The notes under the pieces were generated by a model. It searched no databases, was not told the origin of the DNA, and worked only from the letters and a program-made list of their open reading frames with translations. A stretch of DNA of 38,647 nucleotides from positions 1 through 38,647 of the forward strand of contig JAFSHA010000072.1 of assembly GCA_017440565.1 (NCBI GenBank), read 5' to 3'. Shown piece by piece: positions 5,337 to 33,178 of this stretch. Position numbers and translations under genes: made by a program. The DNA comes from Eggerthellaceae bacterium (GTDB taxonomy: Bacteria > Actinomycetota > Coriobacteriia > Coriobacteriales > Eggerthellaceae). Numbering within the stretch: the stretch's first letter is position 1; every line of letters begins with the position of its first letter.

Positions 5337-5612
5337 ATGAACGATGAATTCTTCAACGCCGGCGGAGATGCCGCCGAAGACTACGCGAGACTGCTCGGGC
5401 ACCGCGTAATAATTTATTACCAGGATCAGCGCGGCACGGACCGCAAGCTGGTCGGCAAGATTGTCGAGATAGACGGCGACCGCCTGTGGCTCGAGAACAC
5501 TCACAAGCGCACGGGCGAACTTTGGCGCGGAGCGATCAACTGCGCTCATTGCAAGATAGGCATCATCAGCACGATCCAGGGCTGGGGCGGCAGGGAGGAC
5601 GTCATGGCATGA
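5337..5612 (+). CDS. Hypothetical protein (91 aa)
   Basis: First gene after the terminator at 5244. The protein starts MNDEFFNAGGDAAEDYARLLG and continues with alternating beta-like segments (HRVIIYYQD, KLVGKIVEIDGDRLWLEN), reminiscent of a small SH3- or Sm-like barrel. One CAHC pair occurs near the end. Its stop overlaps the next ATG as ATGA, so it is coupled to the ParB/methyltransferase gene. ATG 5337 is preferred over the in-frame ATG 5286, since the extra residues lie in a leader close behind the terminator. Family not recognised. Confidence 0.7.
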   Translation: MNDEFFNAGGDAAEDYARLLGHRVIIYYQDQRGTDRKLVGKIVEIDGDRLWLENTHKRTGELWRGAINCAHCKIGIISTIQGWGGREDVMA

Positions 5613-7006
5613 GACACGATGAATTAGTGCATTATGAGGGTCAGGCGATTCAGACTCCTACCGTTTGGGTCAGCATTGACAAAGTGCGCCCTAATACCGG
5701 CCAGATTCAGGGGCTTCCTGCAAATCCTAGACAGTGGACTGATCACGAGCTCAAGCAACTGGCTAAGTCATTGAAGGAGACTCCTGAGCTCTTTGAATTG
5801 CGCCCTCTCATCTGCTACCAGTGTGACGAGGTCTTCGTAGTTCTCGGCGGTAACTTCCGCCTCGCTGGCGCTAAGTACAACAAGATGAGATTCGTCCCCG
5901 TGGTGACGGTGCCTTCGGATACTCCTGTGGAGAAGCTCAAGGAGATCGTCCTGAAGGACAACAGCTCGTTCGGTTCCTGGGATCTCAGCCTGCTCCGTAA
6001 GGACTGGAGCGAGTTTGACTTCGGCGACTGGGGCATCAACGTGACATGGGACACCGCAGGGCCGGCGCCCGACGCGTCCGTGAGCGAGACGCCGCAGGAG
6101 GAAATCGAACGCATGCAGAGAGAATTCAAGGAACGCATGGCGCGCGGCGAGATCTCGGAAGAGGACGAAGAGTACCAGGAATTCCTCGAAAAGTTCAAGC
6201 TCAAGAAGACCACGGATGACTGCTATACTCCCGCGCCCGTGTATGACGCCGTGGCGCGCTATGTGGAGCAGCAGTACGGGCTGGACCGTGCGAACTTTGT
6301 GCGCCCCTTCTATCCAGGCGGCGACTATCGAAACGAGAGCTATCCCGAGGGCTGCGTAGTGGTGGACAATCCGCCGTTCAGCATCCTGGCGGAGATCCTG
6401 CGCTTCTACGACAGCAAGGGCATCAAGTTCTTCCTGTTTGCTCCGACGCTCACGCTGTTCTCTTCTTCTTCTTCTGCCAGGACATGCACGGCGCTGCCTT
6501 GCACTCTCACTGTTATCTATGAGAACGGCGCCAGCGTCAACACTTCGTTCCTGACGAACCTCGAACCGCGCAGCATCCGATTCCGTTCGGCTCCGAAGCT
6601 GCAGGCGATGGTCCAGGAAGGCATCGACGAATTCACGAAGACCCTCAAGAAACAGCTTCCGAAGTACTCATACCCGCCATATATCATCACGAGTTCATGG
6701 GTGGGCATCCTGTCCCGTCTGGGCATTGAGTTCTGCGTGCCCGTGGCAGAGTCGGAAGGCATCAGTGTCCTCGATTCTCAGAAGGCCGCGGGCAAGGCCA
6801 TATATGGCAAGGGCTACATCGTGAGCGATAGAGTGAAAGCGGAACGGGAGAAAGCGGAACGGGAGAAAGCGGAACGGGAGAAAGCGGAACGGGAGAAAGC
6901 GGAACGGGAGAAAGCGGAACGGGAGAAAGCGGAACGCTGGGAACTCTCGGAACGCGAATTACAGATAATTGAACGACTTAACAAGCAACACCATGAGAAC
7001 GAGTAA
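5609..7006 (+). CDS. ParB-like/adenine methyltransferase fusion with KAERE repeats (465 aa)
   Basis: The N-terminal 150 residues look like a ParB/Srx-type domain: VWVSIDKVRPN, then LRPLICY, then VLGGNFRLAGAKY, which matches the ParB G-x-x-R-L-x-A core. The middle resembles an N6-adenine DNA methyltransferase: FVRPFYPGGD near 229 is a degenerate SAM loop and VVVDNPPFSIL (D253-F257) is the catalytic motif. A tail of seven KAER(E) units (409-443) forms a charged helix before a last polar helix. It sits right before terminase, a common site for phage ParB/methylase genes, and may mark DNA against restriction or assist packaging. The first 100 codons use more T-ending codons than neighbours, which hints at a separate source. 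ATG 5609 overlaps the prior stop as ATGA. Confidence 0.75.
   Translation: MRHDELVHYEGQAIQTPTVWVSIDKVRPNTGQIQGLPANPRQWTDHELKQLAKSLKETPELFELRPLICYQCDEVFVVLGGNFRLAGAKYNKMRFVPVVTVPSDTPVEKLKEIVLKDNSSFGSWDLSLLRKDWSEFDFGDWGINVTWDTAGPAPDASVSETPQEEIERMQREFKERMARGEISEEDEEYQEFLEKFKLKKTTDDCYTPAPVYDAVARYVEQQYGLDRANFVRPFYPGGDYRNESYPEGCVVVDNPPFSILAEILRFYDSKGIKFFLFAPTLTLFSSSSSARTCTALPCTLTVIYENGASVNTSFLTNLEPRSIRFRSAPKLQAMVQEGIDEFTKTLKKQLPKYSYPPYIITSSWVGILSRLGIEFCVPVAESEGISVLDSQKAAGKAIYGKGYIVSDRVKAEREKAEREKAEREKAEREKAEREKAEREKAERWELSERELQIIERLNKQHHENE
6835..6938 (+). repeat. 15-bp tandem repeat, seven copies
   Basis: GGAACGGGAGAAAGC repeats perfectly inside the ParB/methyltransferase gene, with GGAACG at 6841, 6856, 6871, 6886, 6901, 6916 and 6931. 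It codes K-A-E-R-E units. Fifteen bases keep the frame, so copy number can drift by slippage without breaking the gene. Confidence 0.9.
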
Positions 7007-7532: not shown

Positions 7533-8735
7533 ATGGAGACGACACGAGTATTCGACGAAATCGCGAAGGCCTACAGGGACGGACTCAGAGGCGTGGACAG
7601 CCGCGGAGGTACGAGAAGCACAAAGACGTACAGCGCGCTGCAGTTCCTCGTGTTCCTCGCCGTAGGCCTTGCGCGTAAGCTCGTAATCTCGGTGGTTTCA
7701 GAGACCCTGCCGCACTTGAAGAAGGGTGCCATCCGAGACTTCGAAGAGATACTCCAGAAAGAGAAGATCATCGCGGGCACCCTGCTGGACGATCCGAGGT
7801 GGAACGCTACGGACCGCGTCTTCCGCTTCCCGTCCGGTACCATCATCGAGTTCTTCTCAGCGGATAGCCCTGGCAAGGTACACGGACCGTCCCGAGATAT
7901 TCTGTTCATCAACGAAGGCCAGAACATCCGCTGGGAAACAGCTCGCCAGCTCATGATCAGAACGCGCGAGTTCATCATCGTGGACTATAACCCGACGCAT
8001 GAGTTCTGGGTACACACCGAGCTCGCGACGGATCCGCGCTTCCGCACCATCGTCAGCACCTACAAGGACAACCGCTTCCTCACGCCCGCACAGGTAGAGG
8101 ACATCGAGCGTGGAAAGAAAAACGCCAACTGGTGGCGCGTCTACGGCCTCGGCGAGACAGGACAGCTCGAAGGCGTAATCTACCAGTTCGAACAGATAGA
8201 CGCCCTGCCGGACAACGCGGGCCTCGTACGCATCGGCGGCCTCGACTACGGCTTTACTAATTCCAAAGCGGCGGGCGTTTACATATTGGCCGATAAACGA
8301 AAACGGATCCTTTATCTGGACGAGATGTTCTATGGCCTGGGTATGCTAAACAGGGACATCGCGACAGCGCTCGCTGCCTACGGATTCCCGAAGAAAGGCC
8401 CGAGGCTATACGCGGATTGCGCAGAGCCTAAGTCTAACGCTGAACTCAAACTCTACGGATACAACATCTGGGCGTCCGACAAGAGCAAGGAAATCGTCGA
8501 CCAGATCGCATGGCTGTCCCAATGGGACATCTGCGTGACCAAGCGCTCGGTGAACATGATACACGAGTTCAGGAATTACCTCTGGGACACAGACAAGGAC
8601 GGCAACAAGCTGAATCAGCCTATCAAGGAATTCGACCACTGCATGGACGCCTTCCGTTACGCAGCATACGGCCAGCTCGCGGACTTCAGACCGCCAAAGA
8701 ACACGACAGTCAGAACAGGAAAACTGAAAAGATAA
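7533..8735 (+). CDS. terL: Terminase large subunit (400 aa)
   Basis: DNA-packaging motor with ATPase and nuclease domains. Walker A is GGTRSTKT at residues 25-32. Walker B is DILFINEG at 122-129, with the catalytic glutamate E128 region. The RNase H-like nuclease has its acidic residues in GGLDYGF (D238), YADCAEPKS (D295) and DHCMDAFRY (D368, D372). Length and motifs fit the Terminase_3 (PBSX/SPP1-like) group, which would go with headful packaging and a circularly permuted genome. ATG 7533 is chosen because it opens the conserved VFDEIAKAYRDG start. It follows the nested hairpin and precedes the neck/tail genes by one base. Confidence 0.95.
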   Translation: METTRVFDEIAKAYRDGLRGVDSRGGTRSTKTYSALQFLVFLAVGLARKLVISVVSETLPHLKKGAIRDFEEILQKEKIIAGTLLDDPRWNATDRVFRFPSGTIIEFFSADSPGKVHGPSRDILFINEGQNIRWETARQLMIRTREFIIVDYNPTHEFWVHTELATDPRFRTIVSTYKDNRFLTPAQVEDIERGKKNANWWRVYGLGETGQLEGVIYQFEQIDALPDNAGLVRIGGLDYGFTNSKAAGVYILADKRKRILYLDEMFYGLGMLNRDIATALAAYGFPKKGPRLYADCAEPKSNAELKLYGYNIWASDKSKEIVDQIAWLSQWDICVTKRSVNMIHEFRNYLWDTDKDGNKLNQPIKEFDHCMDAFRYAAYGQLADFRPPKNTTVRTGKLKR

Positions 8736-29191: not shown

Positions 29192-29219
29192 AAAGTGGGC
29201 GTTTAGTCCCACTTTTTAC
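29192..29219 (+). terminator. Rightward terminator facing the integrase gene
   Basis: AAAGTGGG 29192-29199 pairs with CCCACTTT 29208-29215, followed by T bases that overlap the integrase stop. It would stop rightward RNA before it enters int antisense. Confidence 0.7.
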
Positions 29220-30508
29220 TTTTTGTCAAATTTCGACATTTCCTGGACCTTGACCGAGTCCGCGATTGCAATGTAGGGCTTCATGGAATTGTAGTCGGCA
29301 TGGCCCGTCCAGCGCATCACGACATTAGGCGGAATGCCCATCATGAGCGCATTGCTTATGAAGGTACGACGCCCGGCATGCGTGCTCATGAGCTGCCACT
29401 TCGGAAGCAGAAGGTCCACACGGCGGCCGTTCTGGTATTCAGTGACGCGGACCAGCCGACAGATGCCCGCAAGCCGGCACAGCTCCTTCAGGCGGACGTT
29501 CATCTTCTGATTGCTCAGGACCGGGAACACCTTATCATCAGGGAAAGCCTCGTCGACATAACGGCCCAGGATTTCCTCGCTGTATTTATTCAGCTCGATA
29601 ACGAGATCGTCCGAGGTCTTGACGGTAGTCACGCGTATATAGGTATCATGGACATCGGCCCAGCGCAGACCATATACGTCCGAGTATCGGAGCGACGTGA
29701 AGGCGCAGAAGCAGAAGACATCCCGGACCGGACGCAGGGCGCGATGCTTTTCCGGTATTTCAAAATTCAGCAGGCCCATGAGCTCCTCCCAATCCAGGAA
29801 GATAATCGGATCGTCCATCTTCTGGAGCTTCGGCTTGAATTCCAGGTAATCCTTATAAGGCAGGAGGCCGCGGCGGTCCGCCCAGATAAGGAACCAGCGG
29901 AGCGCGGAGATGTTCTTCTCGACCGTGGTGTCCTTTATAGAGGTAACACCGGACGCCGCCCGTTTATTTACGCGCGTCTGGGAGCGCAGGTGCGCGACAA
30001 ACCGATACAGCCCCTCTTCTTTGAAGCCTTGCCAGGTAAGGTCCGGATCCCACGCCAGCAAATGATTTTTGACTCCCCAGAGCTTCTGGTAGGTACGATG
30101 CGTCCAGCAGTTCCGGGAACCGCGTTCGGCTACGAATATATCGAAGGCACGGAAGACGCCCACGTCCTCGGAACTGGCGAGGCCCAGGGTCTCGGTCAGC
30201 TTGGACCGGAACTCGTCCTTCGAAGGCACGACGCCCTGGGCGTCGAAGGAATCGAAGGCATCCTCGACCGCGTCGGCATACCGGTCGATCTCGGCGTTGA
30301 TGGACGCCGCGGAGATACGACGCGCCCCATGGAAGGACCGAGGGATGCAGCGCTGCGCTTCAGGATCCCAGCGGGATACGTTGACACGACAGCCCACGTT
30401 CAGAGCGACGATGCGCCGGCTGCCTTCCCATTTGACGCGAAGGCGGACACGGGCCTCGTCGGAGTCGGGAACGCGGTCCAGGACAAAAGCGGTGATATGC
30501 TTAATCAT
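29216..30508 (-). CDS. int: Tyrosine integrase (430 aa)
   Basis: Site-specific recombinase that inserts and excises the prophage. The N-terminal arm-binding part and the SAM-like core-binding domain (near 118-215) are of the Bacteroidetes type. The catalytic set is complete: R274 in TSLRYSDV, H377 and R380 in THAGRRTF, H403 in GHADYNSM and Y412 as nucleophile. Length is usual. The gene overlaps the CI-like HTH gene by eight bases and shares its leftward transcript. An open frame on the other strand covers nearly the whole gene and is a shadow. Confidence 0.95.
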   Translation of the reverse strand: MIKHITAFVLDRVPDSDEARVRLRVKWEGSRRIVALNVGCRVNVSRWDPEAQRCIPRSFHGARRISAASINAEIDRYADAVEDAFDSFDAQGVVPSKDEFRSKLTETLGLASSEDVGVFRAFDIFVAERGSRNCWTHRTYQKLWGVKNHLLAWDPDLTWQGFKEEGLYRFVAHLRSQTRVNKRAASGVTSIKDTTVEKNISALRWFLIWADRRGLLPYKDYLEFKPKLQKMDDPIIFLDWEELMGLLNFEIPEKHRALRPVRDVFCFCAFTSLRYSDVYGLRWADVHDTYIRVTTVKTSDDLVIELNKYSEEILGRYVDEAFPDDKVFPVLSNQKMNVRLKELCRLAGICRLVRVTEYQNGRRVDLLLPKWQLMSTHAGRRTFISNALMMGIPPNVVMRWTGHADYNSMKPYIAIADSVKVQEMSKFDKK

Positions 30509-30752
30509 GCATCCGACCCTCCCCGGTCAGGAGCCAGGCGGCATTGATACCGAAGTCGCGGACGAGATACGTCAGCCAGGCCGCCTTGAAATCATTTGTG
30601 CCGGGCGTGACCTGCAGCCGGCGTAGGCTGCGGCGATTGATACCGTAGCGATCCGTGAAGGTCTTGATCCCGCGGATCTGGCGGGACTCCTTCAACCAGG
30701 CCAGCGCTTCGAAGAACCGGCCAACGATAAGATCATGCTCCTCCTGCGTCAT
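30501..30752 (-). CDS. CI-like helix-turn-helix protein (83 aa)
   Basis: Reads MTQEEHDLIVGRFFEALAWL, then IKTFTDRYGINRRSLRRLQ and FGINAAWLLTGEGRMHD. The last phrase, G-I-N-x-x-W-L-L-T-G-E-G, is typical of phage CI-type repressor N-terminal domains, in which an HTH precedes it. No C-terminal peptidase part exists, so it may be an excisionase-like or auxiliary regulator of int. It overlaps int by eight bases and the HNH gene by four. Confidence 0.7.
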   Translation of the reverse strand: MTQEEHDLIVGRFFEALAWLKESRQIRGIKTFTDRYGINRRSLRRLQVTPGTNDFKAAWLTYLVRDFGINAAWLLTGEGRMHD

Positions 30753-31342
30753 CCTATTTTATTTGATTTTTCGAGATTACACTTCTGACACAACAGCTGC
30801 AGATTTTCCAGGGAAGTGGCGCCACCCTTCGAAAAAGGAATGATATGATCCAGTTGGAGATTTTCAGTCGAGCCGCAGTACACGCAACGGGCGCCGTCGC
30901 GGCGATAGACGGCATCGACAACCTCGCGCGGAATCGGCGGGCGCTTCGGCTGATCCCCGAAGAGTTCCCCGGAATCGATAAGTTCCATCCGGACCTGCTC
31001 TTCAAGCTCGCGACGGCGCTGCCTTTCCTTCAGCTTCGAGGCTATCTTGGCTTTTTCGCGTTCCAAAGCCCGCTCTTTTTCAGCGGCCTCACGTGCAGGG
31101 CGCTCTGCCTCCCAGCGCTCGCGTTCCTGCCTCTTTTCTTCCAAAAGCTCCTGGTACCTACGCTGCCTTTCCTCGTGTTCAATTTTATGCTGACGCCAAA
31201 ACTCCGCCGAGCGTTCTTCTTCCAGGCGTTTTTTCTCCGCCTCTTCTTTTTGCAAGAGCTTCAACATACGACGGGCGCGAAGCCAAGCCCAGATGCGCCA
31301 GATACACCATACAAAGAACAGCGTCGAAAGAATTTCCCACAT
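30749..31342 (-). CDS. Membrane-anchored coiled-coil HNH nuclease (197 aa)
   Basis: Three parts are visible. Residues 1-22 (MWEILSTLFFVWCIWRIWAW) are one transmembrane segment followed by arginines, so the body is cytoplasmic. Residues 25-120 are a long charged coiled coil rich in E, K and R. Residues 140-197 form a full HNH domain: CVYC at 153-156, LDHIIPF with D165/H166, N180, and CQKCN at 185-189. Lysogeny modules often carry superinfection-exclusion or defence genes, so this may cut incoming DNA at the membrane; that is inference. It is co-transcribed with the CI-like gene and int. Confidence 0.8.
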   Translation of the reverse strand: MWEILSTLFFVWCIWRIWAWLRARRMLKLLQKEEAEKKRLEEERSAEFWRQHKIEHEERQRRYQELLEEKRQERERWEAERPAREAAEKERALEREKAKIASKLKERQRRRELEEQVRMELIDSGELFGDQPKRPPIPREVVDAVYRRDGARCVYCGSTENLQLDHIIPFSKGGATSLENLQLLCQKCNLEKSNKIG

Positions 31343-31419: not shown

Positions 31420-31578
31420 ATGAACGCGCTAATTTTCAGCAGAATCCTCGGCCTCCTTTGGGCCACAGAACCTATCCAGGACACGATCCATCTGTTCCTG
31501 AGCCTTGCTGACCTGTTTAATGGTAAGCAGGAGCTGCTCGTCCTTCATTTTCAGAAGCTCAAGCACGCCCGGATCTGA
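31420..31578 (+). CDS. Possible antisense small ORF within the repressor gene (52 aa)
   Basis: An ATG frame on the strand opposite the repressor codes MNALIFSRILGLLWATEPIQ and a leucine-rich rest, ending at TGA 31576. It stands after the sigma-54-like motif much as the DnaA-like gene does at 25339. Against it: it lies wholly in another gene's coding strand, where leucine-rich antisense frames are common by chance. Kept only as a possibility. Confidence 0.2.
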   Translation: MNALIFSRILGLLWATEPIQDTIHLFLSLADLFNGKQELLVLHFQKLKHARI

Positions 31579-31842
31579 CGAGACGTTCGAGTAATTGCCG
31601 GCCACCTGCGTCACCTGGGTATTATTGTCCCCTACCGACTGCACAGGACCGAACGCTTCTCCATAGAAAAATGACAGCGGGCGATTCATGGCCTCCGCGA
31701 CTCTTTCCAAAAGCCCCGTTTTTATATCTTCTTTACTCAGGGAACAAGTCAAGTTTTGCTGCGTAGTCCCGAGACGACGGGCGACCTCCGCAACGGATAA
31801 TCCTTCAGCGAGGATCATCTTTTTCAAAGTATTTCCAGTCAT
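31429..31842 (-). CDS. XRE-family repressor (137 aa)
   Basis: Probable lysogeny repressor. An N-terminal HTH covers about residues 5-55: TLKKMILAEGLSVAEVARRLGT then QQNLTCSLSKEDIKTGLLER, ending NRPLSFFYGE. A linker with NNTQVTQVAGNYSNVS, common in Bacteroidetes prophage repressors, leads to a coiled-coil C-terminus (ELLKMKDEQLLLTIKQVSKA), probably for dimerisation. No peptidase site is seen, so induction is not by LexA-like self-cleavage. ATG 31842 is chosen; ATG 31869 would add MLNLVKAIT. Its divergent start faces three palindromes and the early promoter. Confidence 0.8.
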   Translation of the reverse strand: MTGNTLKKMILAEGLSVAEVARRLGTTQQNLTCSLSKEDIKTGLLERVAEAMNRPLSFFYGEAFGPVQSVGDNNTQVTQVAGNYSNVSSDPGVLELLKMKDEQLLLTIKQVSKAQEQMDRVLDRFCGPKEAEDSAEN

Positions 31843-31871
31843 AGTAATCGCTTTTACAAGGTTTAACATTC

Positions 31872-31947: not shown

Positions 31948-31961
31948 AATGCTTATATTTG
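31932..31961 (+). promoter_or_regulatory. Early rightward promoter
   Basis: TTG at 31932-31934, 19 bases, then TATATTTG at 31954-31961. This is a good Bacteroidetes promoter and is followed by an A-rich leader to ATG 32023. Operator TAGTTT-A-AAACTA lies between its boxes, so a bound repressor would block it. Confidence 0.75.
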
Positions 31962-33104: not shown

Positions 33105-33178
33105 GGGAGGATGGCCGAAAGGATAGACATCCGGCTGCAACCCGGAGCATGTGGGTTCGAGTCCCACTCCTCCCTCCA
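33105..33178 (+). tRNA. tRNA-Cys (anticodon GCA)
   Basis: A full cloverleaf: acceptor GGGAGGA 33105-33111 with TCCTCCC 33168-33174, discriminator T, and an encoded CCA 33176-33178. The anticodon stem is CCGG/CCGG around the seven-base loop CTGCAAC, giving anticodon GCA. The T arm is GTGGG/CCCAC with TTCGAGT. It may raise cysteine tRNA for phage genes or replace tRNA cut by host defences. A GGCGGG/CCCGCC hairpin lies just upstream. Confidence 0.85.

Follow-up and report, generated by a model that had tools for sequence, protein, structure and literature searches.

A candidate prophage HNH nuclease with a probable membrane anchor, from a Bacteroidota family with exchangeable N-terminal parts

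We found that the minus-strand gene at 30749-31342 of the analysed DNA, hereafter the window (the whole 38,647-nt contig JAFSHA010000072.1 of assembly GCA_017440565.1, labelled as an Eggerthellaceae bacterium), encodes a 197-residue protein with an intact HNH nuclease domain at its C-terminus, a predicted long charged helix before it and a probable membrane anchor at its N-terminus. Homologues occur in Bacteroidota phages and MAGs. We tentatively read the protein as a prophage-expressed, membrane-tethered nuclease that would cut DNA entering at the membrane and whose N-terminal part would act as an exchangeable targeting device. This interpretation is built on sequence comparison and on analogy with a known system, and we give it somewhat less than an even chance.

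The complete HNH domain proposed for this ORF was borne out. Residues 153-195 (30758-30886, minus strand) match PF01844 with 58 bits (E 1.1e-15) against a cut-off of 21.4, and an alignment of 16 relatives shows D165-H166 (H166 codon at 30845-30847), N180, N189 and the zinc pairs C153/C156 and C185/C188 to be invariant. Judged by Pfam, the alignment and pN/pS, the active site is intact and under purifying selection. By its motif, catalytic histidine and CxxC zinc pairs the protein is placed in the HNH endonuclease superfamily, and nuclease activity is predicted. Since AlphaFold2 modelled the HNH part poorly from the single sequence, a run on the alignment of relatives was used instead, in which the HNH fold is confident (mean pLDDT 94). 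The nearest solved structures found by Foldseek, all of them weak matches, were the GmeHNH nickase (4h9d), Cap5, the ZRANB3 HNH domain and Cas-associated HNH domains.

The N-terminus of the protein is Trp-rich and hydrophobic (ILSTLFFVWCIWRIWAWLR), and residues 3-21 (31280-31336, minus strand) are helical in the AlphaFold2 model. On the Wimley-White octanol scale residues 4-22 reach a minimum of -14.5, which is the most hydrophobic N-terminus among the 45 genes of the window, the next being -5.9. With R16 interrupting the hydrophobic stretch, the same segment does not exceed 1.36 on the Kyte-Doolittle scale and so stays below the usual cut-off of 1.6. The transmembrane anchor of the original prediction is thus backed by the octanol value and weakened by the Kyte-Doolittle value, and we consider a single-span anchor at residues ~3-22 probable, not certain. 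The C-flank of the segment holds nine K/R against six D/E residues, and this basic flank favours a topology in which the HNH domain would face inside; we infer both the membrane insertion and this topology.

Residues 22-124 (30971-31279, minus strand) form the charged stalk, which consists of 57% E/K/R and 19% large hydrophobics. About 95 residues of charged coiled coil had been proposed here, and this part of the prediction failed: the stalk lacks a 3.5-residue periodicity (the observed level occurs in 41% of shuffles), and the coiled-coil reading was rejected for want of a heptad pattern. Helix-type salt bridges are instead commoner than in shuffles (p 0.03), and the alignment-based AlphaFold2 model has a single continuous helix from residue 2 to 124, with pLDDT mostly 97-99. 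The stalk is therefore better read, from composition and model, as a charged single helix than as a demonstrated coiled coil.

The HNH gene lies in a minus-strand row that runs from a repressor-like (Cro/CI-type) gene through the HNH gene and a small phrog_9710 gene to the integrase and a terminator-like stem-loop. The first gene (31429-31869) encodes a putative phage repressor with an HTH, a GDNN turn and a further helix, matching the transcriptional regulator phrog_2439 (E 5.5e-8). The small regulator-like protein at 30501-30752 matches phrog_9710 (E 1.2e-23), and its gene overlaps the HNH gene by ATGA; its relative in locus L002 additionally matches the repressor families phrog_8 and phrog_4. 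The tyrosine integrase at 29216-30508 (PF00589, phrog_1) has relatives in Porphyromonas, Bacteroides and Cellulophaga phages, and a search of the viral_contigs collection confirmed no relative of it. For the stem-loop just past int (29192-29215) the argument is its position, the count of such sites in the region being no higher than in shuffles. No terminator-like site was found between the repressor and the HNH gene or before the end of int, so the gene order suggests that the HNH gene would be co-expressed with int in the lysogen. The placement in a lysogeny operon was confirmed in the sense that the gene stands between a Cro/CI-type regulator and the integrase. As regards the prophage expression that superinfection exclusion calls for, gene order puts the HNH gene behind the repressor here, and the arrangement is repeated in relatives.

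The contig itself is probably a Bacteroidota phage put in the wrong bin. The assembly's RpoB most resembles Actinomycetota chains, whereas the HNH relatives come from Bacteroidota records and the integrase relatives from the phages named above. A 27-nt tandem repeat is common to both contig ends (15-325 and 38442-38644), which would be the case if a circular genome had been opened within the repeat; the contig therefore probably represents a whole circular phage genome, with the break inside a gene that bears the repeat. Searches of the assembly's own family, class and order found no close homologue, which is uninformative on the true host group given an Actinomycetota assembly with a Bacteroidota-type phage. 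Several other features were seen in this phage. A candidate Bacteroidota-type -7 element (TAnnTTTG), TATATTTG at 31954-31961, was noticed by eye upstream of the rightward early genes, and the early region carries a plus-strand tRNA-Cys gene at 33105-33178. Within the ParB/methyltransferase-like gene at 5486-7006, seven copies of a 15-nt repeat (6820-6954), read by eye as KAERE, give this phage another strongly charged helix.

Comparison with relatives showed where the conservation lies. The family as we define it has 14 members: the window protein, L002, L005, L006, L007, Bacteroides phage BS-TP3 gp27, L013, L014, L015, L054 and L118-L121. L047 and L049, TM-HNH proteins of other lineages with a more distant HNH domain, were left out. 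The C-terminal module comprises about 100 residues (helix end and HNH) and is 49-90% pairwise identical across the members; in the window protein it is the last 101 residues (30752-31054, minus strand), made up of the helix end, a K-R-x-P-I-P linker, the HNH domain and a terminal SNKIG. Its pN/pS is 0.18-0.28 in the five members compared at codon level, with synonymous sites near saturation. In close relatives conservation is limited to these last ~100 residues, and the preceding parts are unrelated except within sub-groups. VWCIWRIW was among the search patterns and no confirmed locus matched the N-terminal part of the query. A search recentred on a Rikenellaceae MAG gave a match in 6 of 393 genomes, that MAG included.

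The front ends are diverse. Hydrophobic helices or TM2 hairpins stand at four of the 14 N-termini and the other ten have no hydrophobic N-terminus, as counted in sampled collections. The window protein has its hydrophobic helix and charged stalk, L002 a TM segment (KD 2.52) followed by FtsK-gamma, L119 a TM2 domain (PF05154) followed by FtsK-gamma, and L006 two TM segments (KD 2.49). FtsK-gamma occurs in six members (L002, L119 and also L005, L014, L118 and L120; Pfam E 4.6e-10 to 3.5e-27) and an FtsK/SpoIIIE domain in one (L007, E 4.9e-19); BS-TP3 gp27, L013/L015/L054 and L121 carry other parts without an assigned family. In L007 (5314-6303) the Walker A (GQGKV) and Walker B (GEF) motifs of the FtsK/SpoIIIE-like domain look degenerate by eye, and the domain might imitate FtsK for docking. 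A hydrophobic N-terminal helix is missing from the close nuclease homologues L005, L014, BS-TP3 gp27, L013, L015 and L054, a finding that the original prediction itself had named as counting against it, and membrane tethering is thus no hallmark of the family. Since only the C-terminal module is conserved and the front parts are unrelated, the better reading of these alignments is a constant cutting module with an exchanged N-terminus.

The position of the gene recurs with the module. It lies directly behind a phage repressor in the window, L002, BS-TP3, L013 and L054, and one gene later in L006 and L015. The repressors were recognised by phrog_4 or phrog_8 in five of these seven loci and by phrog_2439 in the window, and L013 has a C-terminal S24-like piece that shares 38% identity with the repressor of L002. 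They are diverse, often only 22-48% identical or without detectable similarity. Homologues occupy the slot behind the repressor in six or more further phages or prophages, which fits a function of the HNH gene in the prophage state. Cassettes with a related integrase fill the slot differently: that of Porphyromonas phage005b has a repressor, a second small repressor and the integrase with nothing between, and in that of vB_RanS_PJN03 the slot codes for a TM-helical protein and for a secreted one. The phrog_9710 gene occurs without the HNH gene in both of these cassettes, and the HNH gene occurs without phrog_9710 in the neighbourhoods of L006, L054 and BS-TP3. Since no obvious phage genes are seen around L118-L121, the family does not serve prophages alone. 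A small lipoprotein gene adjoins the HNH gene in L002, L006, L014, L015 and L054, which is compatible with a lysogenic-conversion region. At L102 (6377-10038) a large helicase-like gene follows a TM-HNH protein of another lineage, possibly as a defence pair.

The closest functional parallel is SNIPE, a membrane-bound GIY-YIG nuclease with DUF4041 (PMC13190303, Nature 2026), which has a TM segment near its N-terminus and a cytoplasmic C-terminal nuclease, the nuclease being conserved and the N-terminus hypervariable (PMC13190303). A TM segment is present in 66% of SNIPE homologues, and SNIPE cleaves phage DNA as it is injected and becomes toxic when its TM segment is removed (PMC13190303). With its probable anchor, the window protein is predicted to share this plan of N-terminal membrane segment, helical part and C-terminal cytoplasmic nuclease, and its family likewise combines a constant nuclease with a variable N-terminus. 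It differs in having HNH in place of GIY-YIG, a charged helix in place of DUF4041 and a site behind phage repressors. Pfam gave HNH families only, with no GIY-YIG and no DUF4041 match at E 0.1, and no separate domain for binding DNA or the injection machinery was recognisable. Because DUF4041 and GIY-YIG are absent, the window protein is not a SNIPE member; by analogy it may work like one. Cutting of entering DNA at the membrane, which had been put forward as an undescribed mechanism, is already what SNIPE does by means of GIY-YIG (PMC13190303).

Nearer in sequence is gp27 of BS-TP3 (XPO95380.1, annotated as an HNH endonuclease), which is 79.5% identical to the window protein over the last 78 residues and is likewise encoded directly behind the repressor and upstream of the integrase on the same strand; its N-terminal 115 residues are unrelated and have no hydrophobic helix. 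The FtsK-gamma-HNH proteins of Bacteroidota carry the C-terminal module of the window protein (49-75% identity to it), but start with an FtsK-gamma winged helix, with TM segments in two. We found no description of this fusion in the literature, where candidate papers were judged by title. The TerD and cyanobacterial fusions (L020, L017, L058) have a related HNH tail C-terminal to unrelated domains, and differ in their TerD or unassigned N-terminal parts, lower similarity and lack of a charged stalk. GmeHNH, CBASS Cap5 and EcoKMcrA share the HNH fold at weak similarity, but are soluble and have other or no partner domains. Literature searches for membrane-anchored HNH nucleases in anti-phage defence or superinfection exclusion returned nothing or SNIPE. 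Among defence models, PADLOC gave partial matches of HNH length without substantial coverage (PtuB, PDC-M01B, type II REase, Cas9), and a known PADLOC system was rejected on that ground. A terminase-associated HNH protein of the HK97 gp74 type was rejected because TerL (7533-8735) is far from the HNH gene. A free-standing phage homing endonuclease was also rejected, since Pfam found no NUMOD/AP2 or other DNA-binding repeats and the gene sits in the lysogeny cassette and neither interrupts nor adjoins a conserved essential gene or intron; the predicted unlikeness to homing HNH enzymes therefore holds by context.

With the SNIPE-like plan in view, entry-site cutting is the most economical reading. 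The C-terminal ~100 residues would do the cutting, the N-terminal part would set the location of the enzyme and differ between phages, and the nuclease would be made alongside the repressor in the lysogen. There it would cut DNA entering at the membrane, whether from a rival phage or mobile DNA of another kind. As in SNIPE, either distance or an inhibited state would protect the chromosome. An anchor on a long stiff helix suggests, and does not prove, a guard of the host against incoming DNA, and lysogenic expression, cutting and protection are all what we infer. Membrane-type N-termini that arise independently on the same module (L002, L006, L119) support this reading. Its extension to the family, which we think somewhat unlikely, would be a Bacteroidota-wide nuclease, often behind a phage repressor, that combines one HNH module with exchangeable guides (an anchor on a rigid helix, a TM2 hairpin, FtsK-gamma, a dead FtsK motor domain), placed where foreign DNA enters or moves, and that represents a second, independently evolved case of SNIPE-like entry cutting, used by prophages for superinfection exclusion.

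Against the membrane reading stand the ten relatives without a hydrophobic N-terminus, the borderline Kyte-Doolittle value with R16 inside the segment, and the FtsK-gamma versions, which would be expected on DNA rather than on the membrane. The first two points would suit a soluble or peripherally membrane-bound prophage defence nuclease, whose helix served protein interaction or oligomerisation and which told foreign DNA apart otherwise than by location; we consider this unlikely, as the octanol value and basic C-flank are typical of an anchor and other members have clear TM segments. The third would suit a nuclease acting on chromosomal or prophage DNA, guided by its N-termini to chromosome-processing or septal sites, for example in excision, dimer resolution or induction. 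In FtsK itself the gamma domain recognises sequences that mark the orientation of the chromosome, and it switches on XerD; seven members carry it or the FtsK/SpoIIIE domain, and the HNH gene of the window is two genes from int. We nevertheless judge such a role quite unlikely, since the window protein itself contains no FtsK piece, no phage genes lie near the chromosomal members for them to serve, the Walker motifs of L007 appear degenerate and related cassettes manage without an HNH gene.

HNH effectors such as Cap5 kill through genome degradation. Cap5 is among the nearest weak structural matches, and the translational ATGA overlap could point to the phrog_9710 gene, or another adjacent small gene, as the control partner of a nuclease toxin that belongs to an addiction or abortive-infection unit and kills the host when it is infected. 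Each of the two genes occurs without the other in the loci given above, and we regard this explanation as improbable. Very improbable, in our view, is a selfish or homing HNH gene fused to a resident ORF: phage homing genes often encode HNH domains and the module sits on many unrelated N-termini, but the gene's position is kept behind the repressor instead of beside or within conserved essential genes, DNA-binding repeats are missing, and the module invariably forms the very end of an intact longer protein and is constrained together with its linker helix.

If entry-site cutting by this family is true, DNA cutting at entry would have arisen in two or more unrelated nuclease folds, and Bacteroidota prophages, for which few superinfection-exclusion mechanisms are known, would use it against rivals. 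The constant nuclease with its exchangeable N-terminus would then allow one to test directly whether location by itself is enough to tell self from non-self.
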